Assembly (NCBI RefSeq): GCF_000317045.1
Contig: NC_019703.1
Coordinates: 3,150,501 to 3,214,500 of the forward strand
DNA: 64,000 bases
Source: Geitlerinema sp. PCC 7407
Lineage (GTDB): Bacteria > Cyanobacteriota > Cyanobacteriia > PCC-7407
Reading direction: 5' to 3'
Shown piece by piece: positions 3,337 to 62,082 of this stretch. The notes beneath the pieces are model-generated. The model saw nothing but the letters and a program-made list of their open reading frames with translations. It ran no database searches and was not told the DNA's origin. The position numbers were made by a program, and so were the translations under genes. Numbering within the stretch: position 1 is the stretch's first letter; each line of letters starts with the position of its first letter.

Positions 3337-4653
3337 TTAGGTATACAAATAAATCTCCAATTCAATATCACCAGATTCTACTGCTTCCTTTATTGCTGAG
3401 GAAAGATAACCAAAATCATACCCATCAAGAGATGTACTACTTTTTATCACTACGTAGTCCCAGTCCAAATCTTGCAAGTCTGACAATCTAATGTTTACAT
3501 CTTTGAATTCAATATCATGCCTGTAGGAGTAGCAGTCATCATTGGAGTCATCAAACCAGTCATCAGTGGAGTCATCATCAACGGTTTTGACCATTTTTGA
3601 GACTTCTTCTCCAAACCCCATGTCAAGCATTAAATCTGAAAATCTATCCCAGCTTTTCGCAATTCTTATGCGATCTATACAGTCATATTTTACAAACGTG
3701 TCTTCATCTAACCACAGCCCTTGATAGGAAGATGGATGAATATCTTCAGGGAATTGCGTAGTTTCATCATACCGAACACCATCTAAATCAGCACCCCGTA
3801 AATCCGCATTCTCGAAATTAGCACCCTTCAGATCAGCGTATGAAAGGTTAACGTTACAGAGGTTGGAGCCGCGAAGATTGGCATTGATCAGAATAGAATT
3901 TTCTAAATTCACCTCTCGCAAATCTACATTCTCGAAATTAGCGCCTTTAAGCTCGGCTCGGAAAAAGTTGGCATTCGATAGCTTTACATTGCGAAAATCC
4001 ACATTTACAAAACTGGAATCCGTTAGATTCGCTCCTTGTAAATCTGCCTCTTGCAAAGAGGCATTGCTGAAGTCGACACAAGCCAAATTAGCATTTGGCA
4101 GAATAATTTTGTCTAGATTTGCACCACACAAAAGAGCCTGGCCTAAATTGGCTTCACGCAAATCTGCATCTTCAAAATTAGCCCCTTTAGCATCAATGTC
4201 TGACAAGTTAGTATTTCGTAAATCTGCACCGCGAAAATCTACATTTATCAGCTTAGAATTACACAGATCTGCTCCTTGCAGATTTGCCTCTCTCAAAGAA
4301 GCATCATTTAACTCAGCATTATCTAATTTGGCATCCGACAGAACGGCCTTGTCAAGTTTTGCTCGGTGTAGGCAAGAATAGCCTAGGTTTGCTGAGCTCA
4401 AGTTTGTTTCGCTTAAATCGGCTTCTGTCAAATTATTGTCAGACAAATCGACGCGACTAAAATTGGCACCAACTATCTTCGATTTGATCATCGATAGATA
4501 AGAGAGATTGGCATCTTGCAAATCAACTCCTGTAAAGTCCACACCATCGAGATTTAGGTCATCTTCTTGAGAGGAGAAGTCTCGCACTCCTGAGGCATAG
4601 AGCTCTTGTATTTTTTTGACCTTTGCGGCTTTATCCTTGGGATACTTCTGCAT
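3337..4653 (-). CDS. Pentapeptide repeat protein with acidic C-terminal domain
   Basis: A 438-residue protein. Residues ~30-300 are near-continuous A(N/D)LXX pentapeptide repeats (NLSYL, NLTEA, DLSET, NLSSA and so on), which fold as a right-handed quadrilateral beta-helix. Such proteins are abundant in cyanobacteria and mostly of unknown role; a few mimic DNA. The last ~130 residues are non-repetitive and strongly acidic (a run around DDDSTDDWFDDSNDDC). The gene is clearly more AT-rich than its neighbours, and stands alone on its strand with no operon partner. AT bias suggests acquisition or relaxed selection, which is inference. Confidence 0.9.
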   Translation of the reverse strand: MQKYPKDKAAKVKKIQELYASGVRDFSSQEDDLNLDGVDFTGVDLQDANLSYLSMIKSKIVGANFSRVDLSDNNLTEADLSETNLSSANLGYSCLHRAKLDKAVLSDAKLDNAELNDASLREANLQGADLCNSKLINVDFRGADLRNTNLSDIDAKGANFEDADLREANLGQALLCGANLDKIILPNANLACVDFSNASLQEADLQGANLTDSSFVNVDFRNVKLSNANFFRAELKGANFENVDLREVNLENSILINANLRGSNLCNVNLSYADLKGANFENADLRGADLDGVRYDETTQFPEDIHPSSYQGLWLDEDTFVKYDCIDRIRIAKSWDRFSDLMLDMGFGEEVSKMVKTVDDDSTDDWFDDSNDDCYSYRHDIEFKDVNIRLSDLQDLDWDYVVIKSSTSLDGYDFGYLSSAIKEAVESGDIELEIYLYT

Positions 4654-14470: not shown

Positions 14471-15070
14471 ATGCTCATTGACGCCCACTGGCTCAGTCGC
14501 CCTTCCACCGAAGTTGCTCCAGACCTGATTGGCTGCACCCTCCTGCGGCGACTACCCGACGGGACCTGCCTCGCGGGCACCATCGTCGAGACCGAAGCCT
14601 ACGGTCCTGGAGACCCCGCCATGCACGCCTATCAGCGCCCCACCCCCCGCAACAAAGTGATATTTGGGCCTGCCGGGACGGCCTATATCTATTTGATCTA
14701 CGGGTGCTATCACTGTCTCAATGTCGTGACTGACCAAGATGGCATCGCCAGCGCTGTGCTGATTCGGGCTCTGCAACTCGCCAGCGTCCCGGCCTGGGTC
14801 GACCCCCAGCGCGAACCCAAGCCCCATCGCATCGCCGCTGGCCCCGGCAAGCTCTGTCGCACTCTCCAGATCGATCGCTCTCTCAACGCAACCCCCCTCC
14901 AACCCGGTCAGAGCCTCTGGCTAGAGCACCGCTCTCCTGACTGGCAACACCGCTTCGATCAACAAACTTTTTCCATCACCCAAACCACCCGCATCGGCCT
15001 CACCAAAGGCGTCGATCTCCCCTGGCGCTGGTATCTCAACCACTGCCCCGCCGTCTCCCGCAAAGGCTAA
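14471..15070 (+). CDS. DNA-3-methyladenine glycosylase (AAG/MPG family)
   Basis: 199 residues from the ATG at 14471 (MLIDAHWLSRP). Motifs: VAPDLIGCTLLRR, the catalytic-glutamate block IVETEAYGPGDPAMHAY, the product-site loop NKVIFGPAGTAYIYLIYGCYHCLNVV, and AAGPGKLC. This base-excision enzyme removes 3-methyladenine and other alkylated or deaminated purines. The frame is open upstream to a TTG at 14375, but that extension is Pro-rich, unlike the family, and would make the protein too long. Confidence 0.93.
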   Translation: MLIDAHWLSRPSTEVAPDLIGCTLLRRLPDGTCLAGTIVETEAYGPGDPAMHAYQRPTPRNKVIFGPAGTAYIYLIYGCYHCLNVVTDQDGIASAVLIRALQLASVPAWVDPQREPKPHRIAAGPGKLCRTLQIDRSLNATPLQPGQSLWLEHRSPDWQHRFDQQTFSITQTTRIGLTKGVDLPWRWYLNHCPAVSRKG

Positions 15071-15426
15071 AGTTTCAGCCTCATCTAAACAAGCCCGATC
15101 AGCTTTCTGTAAATATCACGTTTGGCGATCGCAAATTTGGGAATACTGAAAAAGTCTTGTTTTTAGAATGATGCCATGCTCTTTATATCCAAAGAGAGTA
15201 AATTAAAGCCTATAAAGATGATGAGGCTTTGGCTTTATTCGATCAGACAATAGAAAACATTTTCTTACGCATCAATACAGTACCAAAAGGAAGCTTTTAC
15301 TTTTAATCTAGAGACACGGCTTTATATGAAACAATCGTTGAATCAGACAGAAGCATTCAAGCTTCCCAAGCTTCGACTTTAGAGATTTCACTCAAATTCA
15401 TAGTAAATCAAAAACCAAAACAGAAA
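15071..15426. other. AT-rich gene-free spacer with a possible coding remnant
   Basis: About 350 bp, much more AT-rich than the upstream gene. A plus-strand frame near 15200-15308 would read KDDEALALFDQTIEN and end FYF-stop, which looks protein-like but has no plausible start. It may be a decayed gene. Nothing else is supported here. Confidence 0.3.
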
Positions 15427-15741
15427 ATGAAGCCAAAATCTCCCTGGAACACCATCATTAAGTTTTTGGGTGGCGCTGGACTTTTCGTCTTAGCTTCTAG
15501 TCAATTTTTTGACAACTTCAATCCAGTCTCCAAGAGCCCCAGTCAAAGTTCTAGCAACTCCTCTATTCGTTCGGAATGCAATATCAAAGGCAACATCTCT
15601 ATAGATTCAGGAAGAAAGCTTTATCATGTACCTGGAATGGAAGATTATGAATCTACCAGAATCGATCAATCTGCTGGCGAAAGGTGGTTTTGCACTGAAA
15701 ATGAGGCGATCGCCAGCGGCTGGACAAGGGCTCCAAGATAG
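15427..15741 (+). CDS. Small membrane-anchored or exported sunset-domain protein
   Basis: 104 residues: a short basic N-terminus and one hydrophobic segment (FLGGAGLFVLASSQFF, ~13-28), a Ser/Pro-rich linker, then a compact C-terminal domain (~50-104) with CNIKGNIS, YHVPGMEDYE, GERWFCTENEAIASGW. The paired Cys and the Y-x-P-G...GERWFC pattern match the sunset domain often found beside thermonuclease-type domains in cyanobacteria. The domain's function is unknown. Composition is AT-rich and it lies next to a transposase remnant. Confidence 0.72.
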   Translation: MKPKSPWNTIIKFLGGAGLFVLASSQFFDNFNPVSKSPSQSSSNSSIRSECNIKGNISIDSGRKLYHVPGMEDYESTRIDQSAGERWFCTENEAIASGWTRAPR

Positions 15742-15823
15742 AGAAAAATCTCTCGAAATCAGTGCCCCTGTCAATAGATTTTTTTGGTGATAACCACCTA
15801 ACAAGAAATGATCAGTCAATACA

Positions 15824-15997
15824 TCAATTCTTGTAGAAACTCTTTGCCGTAGAGAGAATTGCACGAGTAGCAGGGGCAATTAGCTCAGAAACGCATTTGC
15901 TAACCCCGAAGCACTCCGCCACTGCGCGAATTGATGTGTTTCCTTGCTTAGAGACCTCAATGATTTTTTGGCGCAGGTCTCTAGAGTAAGCTGGCAT
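15824..15997 (-). pseudogene. IS630-family transposase N-terminal fragment
   Basis: An ATG at 15997 opens a 57-codon frame starting MPAYSRDLRQKIIEVSKQG and continuing NTSIRAVAECFGVSK, the N-terminal helix-turn-helix of IS630 (Tc1/mariner-like) transposases. After about residue 40 the similarity fades, and the frame stops at 15824 without any catalytic DDE domain. No terminal inverted repeats were found. This is a decayed fragment, not a mobile copy. Confidence 0.75.
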
Positions 15998-16063
15998 GAT
16001 GGCATTTTGATGTTATGGCTTATCTTATAGTGTCTGATAATTGTGAAAACCGCTGTATTAAAA

Positions 16064-16927
16064 TCATGAGAAGCCCATTAAGATCAAATGCTTGACGTAG
16101 CACACACTTAATTCACTTACCGAAAGTATTGATTCTTGATTACAAGGATTCAAATGACAGATCGCAATAAAAAAGTGAATTTCCTTCTTGTCTTTTGGTT
16201 TTACAGCTCTGACATAGACGGGAATCATTGGAATATAGGCTGGCACCTTAGATCGCAAAGCAAGTATTGGATAAACCAGCTTATGTTTTGACAATGACTC
16301 AAAACTATCAGATGTTTTCGCTTCAATTACAAATAGGGTTTCTCGCTTGTTTTTCCTTCCAACAAATAAAGCATCTATTTCAACTTGGCCATTGATATGA
16401 TTCCACGCTGAGGGTGCCAAAGGACTTGGTTTAAAGTCAAACGTAAAGGTTCCTTGACCAGACGCAGGCGCAGCTAGGCCACCTTGCTCTTCAACCTGTA
16501 AGGCTGCAGCAAGTAATCCTGAGGATGTTGCTAAATTGATGAGCGAATTTTCCGTAAGATTTGCAAGCAGATTAAAAGCAAACAACTGTCTTATAGAAAC
16601 ATTGGGCAAGAATATTTCTGGCTCAACGCCATCAAAAATCAGCTTGTCTATCAAAAAATATTCTGACCAATCACTAGAATTATGAAGTTTTGCCAATCCA
16701 AAATATGTATTTGAGTCGTTAAATCTACAACCCAACCGAAAAACCATATATTCATTTTTACGAAGCTCTGGCTTCAAATCTTCTAATTTTTGAATTGAAA
16801 TACAGGCAGCCGTCTTTTGAGACTTAATCTCATACTCTTTAAGATAGCCTTGAAAAGATTGAGGCTCTGAGTAGCAAACTCCTTGACTTTTCAAGATAGA
16901 GATTGCCTGATCAAAAACACCACTCAT
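16064..16927 (-). CDS. PD-(D/E)XK-like nuclease candidate of unknown family
   Basis: 287 residues. The C-terminal half carries QVEIDALFVGRKNKRE followed by TLFVIEAKTSDSF: Asp185 and Glu202-x-Lys204 spaced as in PD-(D/E)XK restriction-type nucleases, then a helix with KHKLVYPILALRS. The N-terminal ~150 residues look like a recognition or winged-helix region. It resembles uncharacterised restriction-endonuclease-like proteins (DUF6997-like), an assignment made by pattern only. AT-rich; it follows the truncated HNH-family gene by 65 bp on the same strand and lies next to an IS630 remnant. Confidence 0.55.
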   Translation of the reverse strand: MSGVFDQAISILKSQGVCYSEPQSFQGYLKEYEIKSQKTAACISIQKLEDLKPELRKNEYMVFRLGCRFNDSNTYFGLAKLHNSSDWSEYFLIDKLIFDGVEPEIFLPNVSIRQLFAFNLLANLTENSLINLATSSGLLAAALQVEEQGGLAAPASGQGTFTFDFKPSPLAPSAWNHINGQVEIDALFVGRKNKRETLFVIEAKTSDSFESLSKHKLVYPILALRSKVPAYIPMIPVYVRAVKPKDKKEIHFFIAICHLNPCNQESILSVSELSVCYVKHLILMGFS

Positions 16928-16992
16928 ACTTGAATAGTTTAGACAGTGATATTGACTGAGATGTTTTAGCTAGAGAACCAAAGCCAAAAGCC

Positions 16993-17652
16993 CTAGCGCA
17001 GTTTTTCAGCCATTTGGTCAACGCCTGGATTGGATCGTTCCATATAGTCTACCCACGCATCAAACGCCCAGTCTTGAATTTGGGCATCATTTTCTTGTAG
17101 ATAAGTCGCCCAATCAGGGTGAACGATGATCGCCTGTGCATCATCGGTAAAAGTGTAGAGTGGCTTGCGAGTTTCAAACTCGTCTTGGGACAGCACCAAA
17201 ATCTTTTGATTAACCTGGGCATCCTTAACCCTTACTAGTTCGTCATCAAAGAAGGGGCGGATCAGGCGAAAAGGGACATAGCGCAAGAGTTCAACAGTGG
17301 AATCGACGACCCGGCCCTGAACCATTCCTCGAAGATCACTCCGACTAACATCGCTAACGCGAAACAAGGATTTTGGCAGAGCATCGTCTAATTCTTTCAG
17401 CTTCTCTACAATTCGATCTTGTACCCCAAATTTCAGTTGGTAGATAAAGTAAGGTCTCCAAGCTCTAGCCAACATCTCTACTACTACATCCTTAAGCAGG
17501 ATTGGCATAGAAACATCAAACTGGCGTTGATGCAATCTATCTATCAGCCCCAGAAAGAATAGATATTTATAAGAATTCGTTGTGTGATCAAACAATCGGC
17601 TTAGTGCCTCAGTATTCAGAGCTTCAGAGGGGGATAATCTCATAGTCACCAT
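16993..17652 (-). CDS. HNH-endonuclease-family protein lacking the HNH domain
   Basis: 219 residues. The N-terminus LSRLFDHTTNSYKYLFFLGLIDRL and the late block VHPDWATYLQENDAQ, then WVDYMERSNPGV, follow the non-catalytic part of a known group of phage-defence-like HNH proteins. In those proteins the HNH catalytic domain comes next, but here the gene stops right after MAEKLR. The 65 bp downstream do not restore a frame with HNH residues. It is either a decayed nuclease or a domain retained as partner of the PD-(D/E)XK-like gene downstream. Start at 17652 or the ATG at 17643. Confidence 0.55.
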   Translation of the reverse strand: MVTMRLSPSEALNTEALSRLFDHTTNSYKYLFFLGLIDRLHQRQFDVSMPILLKDVVVEMLARAWRPYFIYQLKFGVQDRIVEKLKELDDALPKSLFRVSDVSRSDLRGMVQGRVVDSTVELLRYVPFRLIRPFFDDELVRVKDAQVNQKILVLSQDEFETRKPLYTFTDDAQAIIVHPDWATYLQENDAQIQDWAFDAWVDYMERSNPGVDQMAEKLR

Positions 17653-17725
17653 ACTTCCTTAGTAGTATTTTCGGGTCTGTGGGCGATCGCCTGCTGCTCT
17701 GGGAAACAAAAATTCTTAGATAAGG

Positions 17726-18703
17726 CTAATACTGATATTTGAAGTGCCAGCGATCGCTGATTTTCTCGTCTAGTTGGGTGAGGGGAGAGGCTGGATCTTG
17801 GTGATAGACGAAGGTGGTCCTGACATCCTTGAAGCTGCGAGTGCTGTGGGTGAAAACGAGCGCCAGGTTATCGGCGGTTTTGAGGATTTCTATAGTGCCA
17901 TTGCGCGAGAGACCTTGGTACTGGGGCGGAAGCGCGATCGTATCTCGGCAAATAGCGTCAAACTTTTCTAGGATTTGCAGCGTGCTGTCTAGAAAACAGT
18001 TGTTGCTTCCCTTGGGCTGGGTGGTCTCGACCCAGCGAACCACCGATTCTCGATCGCTGCGATAAAGATTGAAATCAACCAGCGGATCGCTGATGTAGTG
18101 GCTGTGAATCAGGCCGATGGAAAGGGCGATCGCCCCCAGAGAGATCGCCAAAAACAGGCCAGCATTCATCCTGCGGTTGAGGGGCGATCGCTCCTGGACT
18201 TGGCAAAAGTAAATCACGCCCAGCATCGACCAATCGAAGATGAGCAGCGGCCCAATCAGCAGGAAGAGCGCAAATCCCAAGCTAATATCAACCAGCGGCG
18301 TGTAGGCGGTCCAAAAGGGAACCAAGGTGGCCGTTGCCTGACCGGTGAACAGGAGCGCGATCGCCCCAAAGAACCGCACAGCCAGATTGCCGAGGGTCGA
18401 TCGAGGGGGTGGAAAGGGCGATCGCACCAGGGGAATCGCCAGCGCGCCCAAGAAAGCGGCCAGAGCGAGCCAGACCAGTAGCGATCGCCCTGGGAAGATC
18501 ACCGCGATCGCCTGGAAAGAGAGCAAAAACAGACCCGACAGAATGGCCCAAAAAACGGGCAGATAGCGCTCTGGGAGTTTGGCGGTTGCAGGGGCGATCG
18601 GGCCTCGGGACAGTCGGCCCAAAAACTGCGCCAAAATCAGGAGCGTCACGCCCAAACTGAAGCCACCGAACGTCAAAAGCGCTTTTACGAGACTCTCCAG
18701 CAT
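17726..18703 (-). CDS. Multi-pass membrane protein with C-terminal soluble domain, unknown function
   Basis: 325 residues. Residues 1-210 contain about six hydrophobic segments (SLGVTLLILAQFLG, FWAILSGLFLLSFQAIAVIF, FALFLLIGPLLIFDW, LFLAISLGAIALSIGLI). The last ~110 residues are soluble, with two Cys (NNCFLDS, FDAICRDT). No family recognised. The two genes upstream on the same strand (membrane methyltransferase-like, SDR) suggest a loose lipid-related cluster, which is inference. Confidence 0.7.
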   Translation of the reverse strand: MLESLVKALLTFGGFSLGVTLLILAQFLGRLSRGPIAPATAKLPERYLPVFWAILSGLFLLSFQAIAVIFPGRSLLVWLALAAFLGALAIPLVRSPFPPPRSTLGNLAVRFFGAIALLFTGQATATLVPFWTAYTPLVDISLGFALFLLIGPLLIFDWSMLGVIYFCQVQERSPLNRRMNAGLFLAISLGAIALSIGLIHSHYISDPLVDFNLYRSDRESVVRWVETTQPKGSNNCFLDSTLQILEKFDAICRDTIALPPQYQGLSRNGTIEILKTADNLALVFTHSTRSFKDVRTTFVYHQDPASPLTQLDEKISDRWHFKYQY

Positions 18704-57160: not shown

Positions 57161-58813
57161 GTGTTTGCCCGCATTACCCAAACCAGCTCCCGTCAGCGTG
57201 ACATCGCCGAAGTCGTCCTGCGCAACGGCTGGGACTACATGCGGCGCCTCCTCACCGGCGGTAAAGCCAACGAGCCAGACCTGCCCACTCCGGCCGTCTT
57301 GCGCAATATCTTGACCGAGCTCGGCCCCGTCTACGTCAAGCTGGGCCAGCTCCTGAGCACCCGCCCCGACATTCTCTCGGCGGACTACATCGACGCCCTG
57401 AGCGATCTCCAGGCCAATGTCCCGCCGGTCGCCTGGAGCGAGGTCGAAGGGGTCCTGCGGCAGCAGCTCGGTCAGCCCATCAACAGCGTCTTTGCCCAGG
57501 TTGACCCCCAGCCAGTGGCCGCAGGCTCGATCGCCCAAACCCACCAAGCCATCCTGGCGGACGGCCGCACCGTCGCCCTCAAGATCCAGCGTCCCGGCAT
57601 CGATGAGGTCATCGAGCAAGACATCTCCCTGATCAAAGGACTCGCGGAGCTGGTCGCCCTGACAGACTTTGGCAAAGACTACGACCTGGTGGCGCTGGCA
57701 GAGGAGTTTACCGACGCGCTGCGGGCCGAGCTGGACTTCACCAGTGAGGCAGCCTACACCGACCAGCTGCGCCGCAATCTCTCCCAGTCAAAATGGTTCG
57801 ATCCCGATCGCCTGGTCGTCCCCAAAATCAACTGGGAGCTGACCAGCGAAAAACTGCTGGTGATGGAGTGGCTGGACGGCGAAGCCCTGCTCAAAGCCAC
57901 GCTGCAAACCGCCAAAAACAACGGCGACAGCCAAATTGAGCGGCAAGCGGTGACCACGATTCTCTTTCGGGCCTTTTTTCAGCAGATCTTCATTGACGGC
58001 TTTTTTCACGCCGACCCCCATCCCGGCAACGTGTTTTACCTCAAGGATGGCCGGCTCGCGCTCCTCGACTGCGGCATGATGGGCCGCCTCGATCCGCGAA
58101 CCCAGCGCCTCCTGACAGAAATGGTGCTGGCTATTGTCGACCTGGACGCCCAGCGGTGCTGTCAGCTCACCCTAGAAATGTCGGAGTCAAGCCAGATCGT
58201 CAGTCCGGCGCGCCTGGAGAGCGACTATACGCGCCTGCTACGCAAGTACTACAACCTCAGCTTGTCCCAGCTCAACTTCAGCCACGTATTTTATGAAGTG
58301 CTGGAGGTGGCGCGGGAGAACCGCGTGAAGCTGCCGGGAAATCTGGGGCTCTATGCGAAGTGTCTGGCCAATCTGGAGGGCGTCGCGCGCCAGTTCAATC
58401 CGGAGGTGAATCTCCTGGACGAAATCCGGCCGCTGATGACGGATCTTTTTCAGCGACAGCTTGTGGGGGACAACCCGACCCAGACCCTGCTGCGGACGGC
58501 CCTGGATGTGAAGAGTCTGTCGCTGCAAACGCCGCGCAAGCTGGAGATGCTGCTCGATCGCATGACCTCGGAAACCCTCCGCTGGAATCTCACGCTCCGA
58601 GATATCGACGGTCTCCGCCGCAGCCTAGATGACTCTGCGAATCGTCTCTCGTTCAGCATTTTGGTGGGGTCTCTGGTGATCGGTGCAGCCACGATCGCCA
58701 GCAAGGACCAAACCAGCCAGCTCTATCTCGTCAGCACGATTCTCTTTAGCGTTGCCAGTCTCCTCGGCCTCTGGCTGATCATCAGCATCCTGCGATCGGG
58801 CCGCCTGCGCTAG
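57161..58813 (+). CDS. AarF/UbiB (ABC1) family atypical kinase
   Basis: 550 residues from a GTG at 57161 supported by GGAGG 8 nt upstream. ABC1 motifs: GPVYVKLGQLLSTRPDIL (KxGQ), QRPGIDEVIEQD, TDALRAELDFTSEA, HADPHPGNVFY and LLDCGMMGRL. Two C-terminal membrane segments (LSFSILVGSLVIGAATIAS; STILFSVASLLGLWLIISIL) anchor it. Family members support quinone synthesis; in cyanobacteria and plastids they act in plastoquinone/tocopherol or stress metabolism. Confidence 0.93.
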   Translation: MFARITQTSSRQRDIAEVVLRNGWDYMRRLLTGGKANEPDLPTPAVLRNILTELGPVYVKLGQLLSTRPDILSADYIDALSDLQANVPPVAWSEVEGVLRQQLGQPINSVFAQVDPQPVAAGSIAQTHQAILADGRTVALKIQRPGIDEVIEQDISLIKGLAELVALTDFGKDYDLVALAEEFTDALRAELDFTSEAAYTDQLRRNLSQSKWFDPDRLVVPKINWELTSEKLLVMEWLDGEALLKATLQTAKNNGDSQIERQAVTTILFRAFFQQIFIDGFFHADPHPGNVFYLKDGRLALLDCGMMGRLDPRTQRLLTEMVLAIVDLDAQRCCQLTLEMSESSQIVSPARLESDYTRLLRKYYNLSLSQLNFSHVFYEVLEVARENRVKLPGNLGLYAKCLANLEGVARQFNPEVNLLDEIRPLMTDLFQRQLVGDNPTQTLLRTALDVKSLSLQTPRKLEMLLDRMTSETLRWNLTLRDIDGLRRSLDDSANRLSFSILVGSLVIGAATIASKDQTSQLYLVSTILFSVASLLGLWLIISILRSGRLR

Positions 58814-58892: not shown

Positions 58893-59534
58893 CTACAAAT
58901 TTTTTCCCACAAGCAGCCAGAACAGCCAAGCAAAATAGTGAACTACAACGATCGCCCAGAAAACACTTTGATAAGACTGTTTTCGGCTTTTGTGACGCAA
59001 GATTTTCTGAGCGAGGAATCCTCCTATCCATCCGCCTGCAAGTTCACAGATATGCAGCGTTTTTTCAGAAGTTCGCCAATCGTCTCGTTTGGCTCGAGAT
59101 TTATCGTCAGCATATAAAACATAGGTCGCCAAGCTCATGCCAGGATACAGGAGAACCGGAATGGCGTTTCCTGTTGTCCGTGCGTAGTAGGCGGCAGCAA
59201 GCACAGGAATCAAGGACAGCAAAACTGTCTGAAGAATTAGAGAGCCCAGCTTAAGGGCGTTAGAAGATCGTGCAGTATTTGTTGAAGAGGTCGAAGCAGT
59301 ATTTATTTTGCTTCTAGCTCCCAGAATGAATGCATTAGAAGCACGAATTTTTCCTTTTGAGTCAGCTACGCAGTAGTAGTAGATCGTGTCGTCTGTCCGC
59401 GGTCGACGAGTCGCATCTTTCAGCTCGGAAATATGCAGAAAGACTTCTTCGCCTCCGTCAGCGGGTCGAATAAAACCGAACCCACGGCCATCATTCCACT
59501 TTGTGAGCTTTCCGCTGCGCAGACCAGATTTCAT
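58893..59534 (-). CDS. Cold-shock domain-DUF1294 membrane protein
   Basis: 213 residues from the ATG at 59534. Residues ~5-70 are a cold-shock/OB domain (GKLTKWNDGRGFGFIRPADG, EEVFLHISEL) with RNP-like aromatic residues. After a Ser/Thr-rich linker, two to four membrane segments and the DUF1294 block YADDKSRAKRDDWRTSEKTLH, ELAGGWIGGFLAQKILRHKSRKQSYQ follow. This fusion is found in many bacteria; function unknown, perhaps nucleic-acid linked at the membrane. AT-rich. Last gene of the minus-strand island. Confidence 0.9.
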   Translation of the reverse strand: MKSGLRSGKLTKWNDGRGFGFIRPADGGEEVFLHISELKDATRRPRTDDTIYYYCVADSKGKIRASNAFILGARSKINTASTSSTNTARSSNALKLGSLILQTVLLSLIPVLAAAYYARTTGNAIPVLLYPGMSLATYVLYADDKSRAKRDDWRTSEKTLHICELAGGWIGGFLAQKILRHKSRKQSYQSVFWAIVVVHYFAWLFWLLVGKNL

Positions 59535-59607
59535 AGGTATTTCAGTGATGGATTTTCGCAAATCCAGGAAGCCAATTTTATCTATGATATTGCTGCGTTA
59601 GAGCTTT

Positions 59608-60300
59608 TCACCCTGTATAGGGCACAATGTGGCGACATTTAGGATAAGCCGTACACCCATAAAATTTTTTACCCACATTCGCACCGCTGCGGGCCGTTCG
59701 TAGGGTCAGCGGGCTGCCACATTTCGCACAGGTTGTTGTGCTGGAGAGACGTTCCTTGACTGAGTCAATATGTGCGTTTCGTGTTGCCCACGTCTTCGGA
59801 AGCGCGCCGCTGCGAAGGGCTTCAACCATACTGACAACTTCATCATCCGCAAAGAGTTGCTGATCAAAGCTCTTGATATAGGTTGCGTAGCCTTTATTCA
59901 TAACGTTGGCTGGCATTTCGGTTTTGAACTGACACTTTCCCCAGAACATAACGACGGAGTGAATTTTCGATTCTTCGATTTTGAGAAAATCGACGATCGC
60001 TTTTACATGTCTGTAGTTTTGGCGCAATGGGTTTTGCATCTGAAATTTGCGACCCGGCTTGGAAACGGTCCACTGGGCAGCTTTGGGGTTACCGAAGATC
60101 CAGCCTTCGATATTCTTGGATTCGACGACGAAGATTCCGTATTTTGAAACGATTACGTGATCGATCTGCGTCGTGCCATTGTTTGTTTGCAACGTCACAT
60201 TGTTGAGAGAAGTATAAACTTTACTGTCGAGAAAAGCCCATTGAGCGATCGCCCCTTTCGTTTCGCCAATCCAGCCTTTGATACTATTTCTTAGGGACAT
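59608..60300 (-). CDS. NERD-domain protein with C-terminal topoisomerase-type zinc ribbon
   Basis: 230 residues. Residues ~8-125 form a NERD (nuclease-related) domain with QIDHVIVSKYGIFVVESKN: Asp47, Glu60 and Lys62 fit a PD-(D/E)XK-type site. Residues 187-225 carry a zinc ribbon (Cys191, Cys194, Cys216, Cys222; TTTCAKCGSPL, FYGCTAYPKCRHI) like the C4 fingers of DNA topoisomerase I. A DNA-processing role is likely. It is 9 bp downstream of the phospholipase D-like gene, so the two form an operon. Confidence 0.88.
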   Translation of the reverse strand: MSLRNSIKGWIGETKGAIAQWAFLDSKVYTSLNNVTLQTNNGTTQIDHVIVSKYGIFVVESKNIEGWIFGNPKAAQWTVSKPGRKFQMQNPLRQNYRHVKAIVDFLKIEESKIHSVVMFWGKCQFKTEMPANVMNKGYATYIKSFDQQLFADDEVVSMVEALRSGALPKTWATRNAHIDSVKERLSSTTTCAKCGSPLTLRTARSGANVGKKFYGCTAYPKCRHIVPYTG

Positions 60301-60309
60301 TTTTTCATC

Positions 60310-61050
60310 CTAATTATCAGACTTTAGCTTGGGCTTCAAAGTCAGCACGTTATTTGGGAACTGAAGATTTTCAGGCCAGATAAAGTACGGACCAAACTTT
60401 GAACCCATGCGAAACTCACCACCAGCTTCCTTACCCGTAGCAGTTATAAAGTACTTGCCATTTCGGGTCTCCAAGAACCCAGCCTGCACAAGCTTCTCAG
60501 TCAGCTCGACAGTTTTCATTCCTAGTTTTTGAGCAAGCTTCGAGGTGCTCAGCTTACCGATGGTTTTTTCCTCAGCTTCAGGCTGGCCTTCAGGCTCACT
60601 CGATAGACGCTCCAGCGAGATTCGAACCTCTTCGCTAATACGAATAATGCGTTGTGCTTCCTCATAGGTATCTTTGTAGAGTTCTACATCGTCGGCGCGA
60701 CGGATGAGCACACCCATTTCGTTATTATTGACCTGACTAAATTCATAAAGATTAAGACTCGTAATAATGCACAGCTCTTCATTCATATAGCACTTGGCAT
60801 AAAGATTTTTGCAGAAGCTTGTGCGGATATAGGTCATTGCCTTGAGCCAGTCAATCTCTTCAGGCTGAAGCTCACTTTTGCCATAGACAATACGCACATC
60901 GATTTTCAGGCGGTTCTTGTCAGCGAGAAGCTCTTTAATGCGATCGTTGAGTTTCAAGAAGGGACTAATCAAGATAAGGCGGTCCTTCGCACCCTTTATC
61001 AGCTCTTCAAGGAAGTAGTTGGTAGCACTGGTATTCAGAAACTTTGGCAT
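60310..61050 (-). CDS. Phospholipase D-like protein with winged-helix tail
   Basis: 246 residues. The N-terminal ~150 residues match the PLD-like fold (ATNYFLEELIKGAKDRLILISPFL, KNLYAKCYMNEELCIITSLNLYEFSQ, NNEMGVLI). The usual HxK motif reads YAK: the His is Tyr, so the PLD active site looks degenerate. The C-terminal ~90 residues (LSTSKLAQKLGMKTVELTEKLVQAGFLE) look like a winged helix. The N-terminal domain may bind DNA or act with the NERD partner 9 bp downstream. Confidence 0.82.
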   Translation of the reverse strand: MPKFLNTSATNYFLEELIKGAKDRLILISPFLKLNDRIKELLADKNRLKIDVRIVYGKSELQPEEIDWLKAMTYIRTSFCKNLYAKCYMNEELCIITSLNLYEFSQVNNNEMGVLIRRADDVELYKDTYEEAQRIIRISEEVRISLERLSSEPEGQPEAEEKTIGKLSTSKLAQKLGMKTVELTEKLVQAGFLETRNGKYFITATGKEAGGEFRMGSKFGPYFIWPENLQFPNNVLTLKPKLKSDN

Positions 61051-61170
61051 CTTATAATCTCGACTTTAAAACGATAGAGCTATTGTGATCGCTAGCGCTC
61101 CTATTCAGTGATGACTAGTACTTTTGTCTTGTACACAAGCAGGTTCAGGTAATTCACTTCATCAGAGTTG

Positions 61171-62082
61171 TCAAGTATCAGTTTGGGCCTTGAAGCGAAT
61201 TAATCGTGACTTAAGTTCTTCAATACTTAGCGGTGAGGAAGAACGATGAATCATTGCGTGACAGTTGGGACAAACTGGGCGCAAATCTTTTATGGGATCA
61301 ACCTCATACTCTTCAGCTATTTCAAAAATAGGGCGTAAATGGTGAACATGGATAAAGCCTTCGCCTAGTTCACCAAAAGACTTGCCGAAGTTAAAGTCAC
61401 AAACTGAGCAACTCGTACCGTAACGATCAATACATTTTTGGCGTGCTTTTGAATTTCTCTCATAATACTTTGTCAGAACTTGACGTACTGATCCTTCTTG
61501 AAAAATCTCCTTTGAATTCACTTCATCAGAATAGTCATCATAAAAAATCTCGTCAAGAGACAATTTTCTAAAGCCCAAATCAATAACTAATTCATAAAGA
61601 AAAGGCTTATGAAAACGCTTATAAGGAGATTTGTCACAGCGTTCCATTTCATCTAAAACAGCTCGCTTCCAAGCAATTTTTTGCTTAATAGTTAATAGCC
61701 TCTCTGGAAAGCCCTCAAAAGCCAAAAAGTAAGGACATTTTTCTGCAACTTCTCCTGCATGAGGTTTCCACTGTCGCGATCTAAATTCTGGCATCTCAGA
61801 TCGAGATATTAATTCAGATAAACCTTCAAAGCCGTAGGGCAGAGTGAAGCCTACTAGCGGTCTGCCTTTACGAAAGGCAGAAAGAACATATCTCCCATTA
61901 ATGGTTACAGAGAATTTTTTAGCCGAATTTATAGACAACACAAATCGGGGATCATCATTCTCAAATCTTCCTATGTGAATTACCTCTTCTATCAAATCAA
62001 GATACTGCTCCATCCATTCTCGATTCGGGGCTTGCCTAATAACTTGTGTCAGATGTTTTTGAGTAGAATTATCTATATTCAT
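61171..62082 (-). CDS. HNH endonuclease (McrA-like)
   Basis: 303 residues from the ATG at 62082 (upstream frame extension is low-complexity and rejected). Residues ~215-285 hold an HNH domain: CSVCDFNFGKSFGELGEGFIHVHHLRPI and LRPVCPNCHAMIH, with two Cys pairs for zinc and the central HH. The N-terminal ~200 residues (LVGFTLPYGFEGLSELISRS) are a probable recognition domain. HNH proteins of this build act in methylated-DNA restriction or other defence. AT-rich; 120 bp upstream of the PLD-like gene. Confidence 0.88.
   Translation of the reverse strand: MNIDNSTQKHLTQVIRQAPNREWMEQYLDLIEEVIHIGRFENDDPRFVLSINSAKKFSVTINGRYVLSAFRKGRPLVGFTLPYGFEGLSELISRSEMPEFRSRQWKPHAGEVAEKCPYFLAFEGFPERLLTIKQKIAWKRAVLDEMERCDKSPYKRFHKPFLYELVIDLGFRKLSLDEIFYDDYSDEVNSKEIFQEGSVRQVLTKYYERNSKARQKCIDRYGTSCSVCDFNFGKSFGELGEGFIHVHHLRPIFEIAEEYEVDPIKDLRPVCPNCHAMIHRSSSPLSIEELKSRLIRFKAQTDT

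Follow-up and report, generated by a model that had tools for sequence, protein, structure and literature searches.

Two small minus-strand genes of Geitlerinema sp. PCC 7407, one encoding a phospholipase D-like (PLD) protein and the other a NERD-domain protein, raise the question of whether they form a functional unit or simply share an AT-rich gap. They are the middle two of a four-gene island in the stretch that we analysed, hereafter the window, which comprises 64,000 nucleotides (NC_019703.1, positions 3,150,501 to 3,214,500 of the forward strand) and gives the coordinates of the Geitlerinema genes below. Our comparisons point to a PLD-NERD association that is probably real but loose and facultative, and the reading that we favour, though only tentatively, is a facultative two-nuclease element that would target DNA of foreign or competing origin, one of its halves being disarmed in this genome. 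The pair is laid out as follows:

60310 to 61050, minus strand: PLD-like protein, 246 amino acids (Pfam PLDc_2, 2e-6)
60301 to 60309, minus strand: PLD-NERD intergenic gap of 9 bp, from the PLD stop codon to the NERD ATG
59608 to 60300, minus strand: NERD and Zn_ribbon_Top1 protein, 230 amino acids (Pfam NERD 3e-29, Zn_ribbon_Top1 4e-10)

The open reading frames (ORFs), the junction and the Pfam matches agree with the preliminary description of this DNA, which had placed a NERD protein with a topoisomerase-type zinc ribbon 9 bp downstream of the PLD gene. To judge from this spacing, which suggests co-transcription, the pair is a probable two-gene operon. The host genome (a single contig of 4.68 Mb) holds one member of the PLD family and one NERD domain.

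The same arrangement was found at the following loci:

Geitlerinema window: PLD then NERD, same strand, 9 bp apart
Plasticicumulans lactativorans (L043): PLD then NERD, same strand, 99 bp apart
Aeromonas lacus (L060): PLD then NERD, same strand, 23 bp apart
Aeromonas caviae (L107): PLD then NERD, same strand, 25 bp apart
Conjugative plasmids of rep_cluster_1864 (L119, L170 and L171: Acidovorax pAOVO01, Pandoraea, Cupriavidus pRK1-4): PLD then NERD, same strand, 11-12 bp apart by the longest ORF

The search for PLD-NERD pairs elsewhere that had been proposed in the preliminary description therefore has a divided outcome, since the order and strand recur in at least three further lineages but the genes are mostly unpaired. 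Among plasmids, four of the 13 PLD records opened from the best 17 carry the pair (H41-H44, H47, H48 and H50-H56 were opened, H45, H46, H49 and H57 left out), and NERD is absent from all seven IMG/VR PLD loci. For chromosomes our sample consists of the best 80 of 340 PLD matches in one-genome-per-species data, and seven of these 80 loci have a NERD-domain gene no more than 10 kb from PLD. It is adjacent in L043, L060, L050 and L051 (upstream and of other NERD types in the last two); in L084 and L092 it follows PLD at a distance of about 1 kb or less, and in L078 the distance is 5 kb. Adjacency in four of the seven NERD-bearing loci compares with about one expected under random placement among some 15 genes (p 0.008), the NERD family having been fixed for this test beforehand by the window. 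The paired NERD proteins occupy separate places in the NERD tree, so that pairing arose repeatedly or was lost often, with no single, simply inherited operon behind it; the Plasticicumulans row (L166) is not labelled as paired in that tree, so label changes are undercounted or incompletely counted there, and the PLD tree was a quick one.

The recurrence of order, strand and short gap, together with the excess of NERD among immediate neighbours, is what speaks against a simple pile-up, in which four solitary genes were acquired independently into one tolerant AT-rich gap and PLD and NERD are functionally unlinked here. We regard this explanation as rather unlikely, although it would account well for the mostly solitary occurrence of both families, for the differences in GC content and distribution among the four genes, for the absence of the pair from the other cyanobacteria sampled, and for the loss of the PLD active site without visible decay elsewhere in the protein.

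NERD is also not the only nuclease found beside this PLD gene. Among same-strand immediate neighbours in the 80 genome loci, Mrr-type nucleases occur in nine and NERD in four, the Mrr-type calls being made by Pfam on L065, L069, L083, L085 and L100 and by BLAST cluster on the other four. In seven Lysobacteraceae loci the Mrr-type gene comes after PLD, with a spacing of -41 to 64 bp; in L085 and L100 it comes before PLD and carries a Top1-type zinc ribbon. HNH_2 proteins account for three near genes and were assigned by cluster at L064, L081 and L086, and an SNase gene lies near PLD in L078. Restriction-type nuclease profiles lead among the near genes of the PLD loci. Mrr, NERD or HNH_2 make up 15 of the 120 near genes scanned and 3 of the 120 far ones (Fisher p 0.006), a test that leans toward enrichment because the families were partly picked after being seen beside PLD. 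The scan covered 120 of the 132 near candidates and 120 of the 139 far ones, dropped genes shorter than 100 or longer than 700 amino acids and neighbours more than 500 bp away, and was run without L043, L045, L054 and L055, in which a longer overlapping ORF had taken the place of the PLD ORF, which leaves the L043 pair out of the near set; the far NERD count is one gene (L078) and the far HNH count comes from the best 25 rows. At the level of whole genomes, NERD (E <=1e-20) is present in 11 of 39 PLD-bearing genomes against 21 of 369 gammaproteobacteria (p 5e-5), an excess that is only suggestive given that the 39 were hand-picked from the 80 across mixed phyla with most short contigs left out, and that the 369 include the pair-bearing genome G154.

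The window PLD protein itself falls into three parts:

Residues 1 to about 140: Nuc/NucT-type PLD domain; then a low-confidence linker; residues about 166 to 233: winged-helix-like domain

Its place in the PLD superfamily is supported by the PLDc_2 match and by Foldseek matches of its AlphaFold2 model to Nuc and to the Helicobacter NucT (E 6e-7 to 1e-6), with TrmBL2 and SauUSI also among the matches; the PLD profile, run against PDB sequences, had no match at E 1. The model has a mean pLDDT of 76 and is poor at residues 100-109, 143-163 and the last 13. PHROG 9329, to which that database assigns no function, spans the protein nearly end to end (2.6e-103). The C-terminal domain, which was absent from the preliminary description, is modelled as helix-helix-strand-strand and matches the start of the PADLOC phage-defence candidate profile PDC-S69 (1.8e-15), for which no paper was found in the open-access PubMed Central (PMC) literature. 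In the A. caviae PLD (L107 8001-8633, NZ_AP026896.1), directly before NERD, a Top1-type zinc ribbon stands where the winged-helix-like tail would be. These nucleases thus exchange their tails, and the tail of the window protein is accordingly probably a DNA-binding module.

The family to which this protein belongs is uniform in sequence and patchy in distribution. The best 80 of 340 relatives show 63-82% identity and belong to Pseudomonadota, Cyanobacteriota, Planctomycetota, Thermodesulfobacteriota, Lentisphaerota and Sumerlaeota, and the gene is present in 4 of 145 cyanobacterial genomes (the source genome counted) and in 4 of 369 gammaproteobacterial genomes (G154 counted), which is the pattern of a horizontally moved gene under strong constraint. 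Of 72,556 plasmid records, 620 have a PLD match, and 576 of these 620 are conjugative. Among 50,697 phage records there are 7 with a match, every one from a Vibrio phage of 9-11 kb. Two of the seven were opened and both are filamentous phages (Tubulavirales), with PLD as cargo at L200 9001-9711 and L201 7111-7821. The Vibrio phage records label the gene 'DNA repair protein' in six of seven cases and 'DISARM__drmC' in one, labels that are given without evidence. A paper on the Vibrio inoviruses (PMC10790759) makes no mention of 'DNA repair', 'phospholipase', 'nuclease' or 'cargo'. On conjugative plasmids, thermonuclease-family genes stand near DUF1173, beside NERD on L115 (4109-5630) and one gene before PLD on L109 (4501-6780), on IncHI1 and Vibrio MOBH plasmids; this is a recurrent nuclease cluster of such plasmids.

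These carriers could also be taken to mean that the proteins serve the processing or repair of the carrier's own DNA, such as plasmid or inovirus replication intermediates, and not defence. NucT is a DNA-uptake nuclease, the PLD gene of conjugative plasmids is flanked by an OmpA-like gene and NERD, with HU and DUF1173 genes close by, and its presence in Vibrio filamentous phages under a repair label would fit. However, that label is a mere record label, and the sporadic presence in both gammaproteobacteria and cyanobacteria, with carriers that are unrelated, argues against a required replication role, so that we consider this explanation very doubtful.

What sets the window PLD apart is its active site. 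The HxK motif reads YAK, against HAK in all 95 other aligned copies, and His is also found in 11 further plasmid or phage copies; the Tyr in place of the active-site His that the preliminary description had noticed is thus a genuine deviation from its family, and the window copy lacks the catalytic HxK of Nuc-like PLD nucleases. Of the 96 columns conserved in at least 95% of the 95 distinct other copies, the window protein deviates at one, His84, where the Tyr codon occupies positions 60799-60801 on the minus strand (fragments with less than 60% of the query length aligned were dropped from the PLD and NERD alignments), and Lys86, Asn90, Glu91, Ser98 and Asn100 are all kept. Its end branch measures about 0.25 changes per site in the quick tree. 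Since there is no decay at the other conserved columns, the loss may be very recent or a sequence error, or the protein may be kept for a non-cutting role.

The preliminary description had built its mechanism on this substitution, proposing a module in which a catalytically dead PLD recognises DNA and brings in NERD, which cuts. Several observations are in line with such a scheme: 95 other highly conserved columns are kept despite the missing nucleophile, as expected with DNA binding in use, the PLD model has one of its best structural matches in TrmBL2, a chromatin protein of archaea that binds DNA, and NERD is intact 9 bp away. As the mechanism of the module it did not hold up, because the six other paired PLDs keep His and the degenerate scheme therefore cannot be the rule; with His in all 95 homologues as well, it could be true of this one lineage at most. 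NERD moreover has a DNA-binding-type zinc ribbon of its own, and PLD is more commonly unpaired, so that we hold the dead-PLD module to be improbable.

The NERD protein, by comparison with the PLD half, appears complete. It matches PF08378 with 102 bits against a cut-off of 22, and D47, E60 and K62 are intact; among 41 other rows K is invariant and D and E are each kept in 40, which upholds the earlier assignment of Glu60 and Lys62 as active-site residues. The AlphaFold2 model has a mean pLDDT of 93 and fold comparison gave VIA Z values of 8-9 with Can2, Cdn1, McrBC and others, while Foldseek was weak (best E 0.0025). By residues, a confident model and fold comparison it is a complete predicted PD-(D/E)XK nuclease, which would be expected to be active. 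Its C-terminal zinc ribbon is of the C4 type and resembles those of topoisomerase I and of the GRF fingers in NEIL3, and the PDB search with the NERD profile returned weak matches only, to topoisomerase, NEIL3 and other zinc-finger-type chains. By sequence reading, a hydrophobic anchor-like N-terminus is found in most relatives and is absent from the window copy and from the plasmid relative L108. Apart from the pair-bearing centre G154, 20 of 368 sampled gammaproteobacteria have a member of this NERD family, which is also found, at a loose cut-off, in 1,972 plasmid records; the gene is generally alone, few neighbour families recurring besides PLD, mobile-element and transporter genes. A search of IMG/VR with the window protein found no relative, and no close NERD-zinc ribbon relative exists in the 145 cyanobacterial genomes besides its own. 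The nearest relative (58%) is in the gammaproteobacterial locus L078/L144, where PLD, SNase, NERD and CSD-Excalibur genes lie within about 7 kb. The CSD gene about 40 bp after the L078 NERD was considered as a relative of the DUF1294 gene of the island and rejected, as it is CSD-Excalibur.

The remaining genes of the island and its flanks are the following:

58893 to 59561, minus strand: CSD-DUF1294 protein, 222 amino acids (Pfam CSD 8e-9, DUF1294 3e-22)
61171 to 62082 from the ATG, minus strand: HNH endonuclease, 303 amino acids (Pfam HNH 2e-4); a TTG extension reaches 62244
57161 to 58813: ABC1 kinase domain gene (Pfam), one flank of the island
62722 onwards: NDH-1 antiporter-like subunit gene, the other flank

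The ORFs, Pfam matches and base composition confirm that the four minus-strand genes are AT-rich relative to their surroundings, with GC fractions of 0.466 (CSD), 0.473 (NERD), 0.448 (PLD) and 0.383 (HNH), hence 38-47%, against 0.612 and 0.583 in the flanking genes. This is weak evidence of foreign origin because the window has several other AT-rich pockets, near 3, 15, 29, 31, 36 and 51 kb, and 15% of its 1-kb windows, this island counted, fall below 48% GC. One such pocket (14700-18100, 37-46% GC) encodes a DUF6997 protein at 16064-16927, and an AT-rich gene at 3337-4653 encodes a long pentapeptide-repeat protein. Promoter and terminator scans of the island stayed at chance level, and a repeat search of it found short or imperfect repeats only, none marking an insertion. 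A 23-nt direct repeat, 91% identical, joins the 3′ end of the HNH gene (61151-61173) to a site within it (61515-61537).

The preliminary description had included HNH in a module with the PLD-NERD pair, a claim that fails on linkage, the gene lying 120 bp upstream of PLD with no conserved association: no HNH relative was found in the 80 genome loci, the seven viral loci or one cyanobacterial PLD locus. Its relatives occur in 32 of 145 cyanobacteria (own genome counted), most sharing the HNH half only. The N-terminal half, of unclassified fold, recurs in another cyanobacterium (L213 1495-2601) fused to a different HNH class, so that HNH is a separate, modular restriction-like protein, its N-terminal half suggesting a reader domain of a modification-dependent nuclease. 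CSD-DUF1294 was likewise mostly rejected as a part of the module, being common in cyanobacteria (matches in 39 of 145, own counted; the best 15 others near full length with 47-64% identity), with one relative 3 kb beyond the Plasticicumulans pair.

How do the two genes compare with known systems? Nuc is a plasmid-borne (pKM101) dimeric nuclease. Like Nuc (PDB 1BYR) and the H. pylori NucT (PDB 6EHI), the PLD protein has one HxK motif per chain (single-HKD), and it differs from both by its winged-helix-like tail, by the family motif HAKxYxNE...TSxN and by the lost His. In DISARM, DrmA/DrmB (DUF1998) helicase genes stand next to DrmC. The PLD protein weakly matches DrmC (NF038319, 2.8e-6, 27 bits against a cut-off of 133; PADLOC DrmC 2e-5), but no DrmA/DrmB helicase or methylase is found among the adjacent genes (ABC1 kinase, NDH-1 subunit) and the single MZB/DUF1998-type match in the genome lies 0.48 Mb from the pair; DISARM membership was therefore rejected. 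In Mokosh type I, MkoA is a large RNA helicase carrying a NERD domain and MkoB carries PLD. A table in PMC10952713 gives NERD as a part of Mokosh type I, and PLD as a part of type II as well as type I, so both domains are shared and there are weak PADLOC matches to MkoA (0.0018) and MkoB (3e-4), but there is no helicase among the adjacent genes here and proteins of 230 and 246 amino acids face profiles of 1607 and 610 residues. No open-access PMC paper was found for Mokosh with phospholipase D and NERD.

Other systems offer partial precedents. The haloarchaeal AgaP is a PLD-family effector whose catalytic centre restricts plasmid DNA and which is toxic alone (PMC11442185), a precedent for restriction by a PLD nuclease; its partner is an Argonaute (pAgo-PLD, APAP), and no Argonaute gene occurs among the scanned neighbours of our pair. 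If the present PLD were toxic in the same way, there would be a simple reason for the loss of His84. In YprA-helicase 'Dpd-like' systems, PLD nucleases are occasionally swapped for PD-(D/E)xK ones (PMC12458937), which resembles the alternation of NERD and Mrr partners beside this PLD gene, although the nucleases there serve a helicase system and no helicase is adjacent here. Standalone NERD nucleases are described at the edges of Dnd systems (PMC10853773) and PglW carries NERD (PMC12839542), so that conflict systems are seen to use NERD as an accessory nuclease. The window NERD finds its best NCBIfam matches in MAD6 and PglW (7e-6), but defence scans of the adjacent genes found no kinase, Dnd or BREX genes beside it. 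Around the pair the only defence-type gene is HNH, with a weak type IV restriction match (0.015).

Several results weigh against treating the pair as a defence or competition element. NERD is directly beside PLD in only four of the 80 chromosomal loci, two of them in the window's order, and none of 20 independently sampled gammaproteobacterial NERD genes lies next to PLD (17 loci read up to 6 kb on each side, and G302, G449 and G523 by a PLD search of the genomes; the sample centre G154, which carries the pair, is left out of this count). The pair is found in no other genome of the 145 cyanobacteria, profile scans of the island and adjacent genes recognised no known defence system around it, and the enrichment of near over far genes drops to p 0.08 with the Lysobacteraceae Mrr clade counted once. 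Most chromosomal PLD neighbours are housekeeping or unrecognised genes, and an unpaired PLD is the commoner state. The preliminary description had held that a mainly housekeeping context would tell against its module, and this is partly what we see, most PLD neighbours being of that kind or unrecognised and most NERD genes being without PLD, whereas the recurrence of the pair in other lineages stands. Finally, an attack on single-stranded DNA in particular has the weakness that a phage with such a genome would endanger itself by carrying the gene, if the target is not told apart in some way.

Despite these points, we still lean toward the facultative two-nuclease element. The PLD and NERD genes would be drawn from a pool of mobile accessory nucleases, the usual PLD acting as a Nuc/NucT-like phosphodiesterase, probably a dimer, held on DNA by its C-terminal domain, a winged helix or, in one Aeromonas copy, a zinc ribbon. 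NERD would be the PD-(D/E)XK partner, with a zinc ribbon of the type used by topoisomerases and GRF proteins on single-stranded or irregular DNA. The likely role would be an attack on foreign or competing DNA, perhaps single-stranded or branched intermediates, on behalf of the carrying element or the host; the emphasis on single strands is suggested both by the folds, with Nuc/NucT and a GRF-type zinc ribbon, and by carriage on filamentous phages and conjugative plasmids. As the PLD nucleophile is lost here, only NERD would still be expected to cut in Geitlerinema, and the window PLD may be freshly disarmed or kept for DNA binding. A bolder version, which we think improbable, would see a new two-nuclease weapon in which a PLD-winged-helix protein and an interchangeable PD-(D/E)XK partner, either NERD or Mrr and frequently bearing a Top1-type zinc ribbon, came together on several independent occasions, with conjugative plasmids and single-stranded DNA phages disseminating them for conflict between elements, the window PLD having been turned by His-to-Tyr into a non-cutting DNA reader for NERD.

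We found no open-access PMC paper with both 'phospholipase D family protein' and 'NERD domain-containing protein'; what is new here is that the PLD-NERD and PLD-Mrr arrangement recurs, that mobile elements carry it, and that one natural copy has a lone substitution at a catalytic residue. Should the two genes work as a unit, a PLD and a PD-(D/E)XK nuclease would be brought together in one very small helicase-free system, carried by conjugative plasmids and, for its PLD half, also by filamentous phages. The natural copy with its one catalytic substitution is a ready test of whether the PLD has a job besides cutting, and the interchangeable partner offers a direct way into the function of the PLD-winged-helix family, which is widely spread and apparently unstudied.

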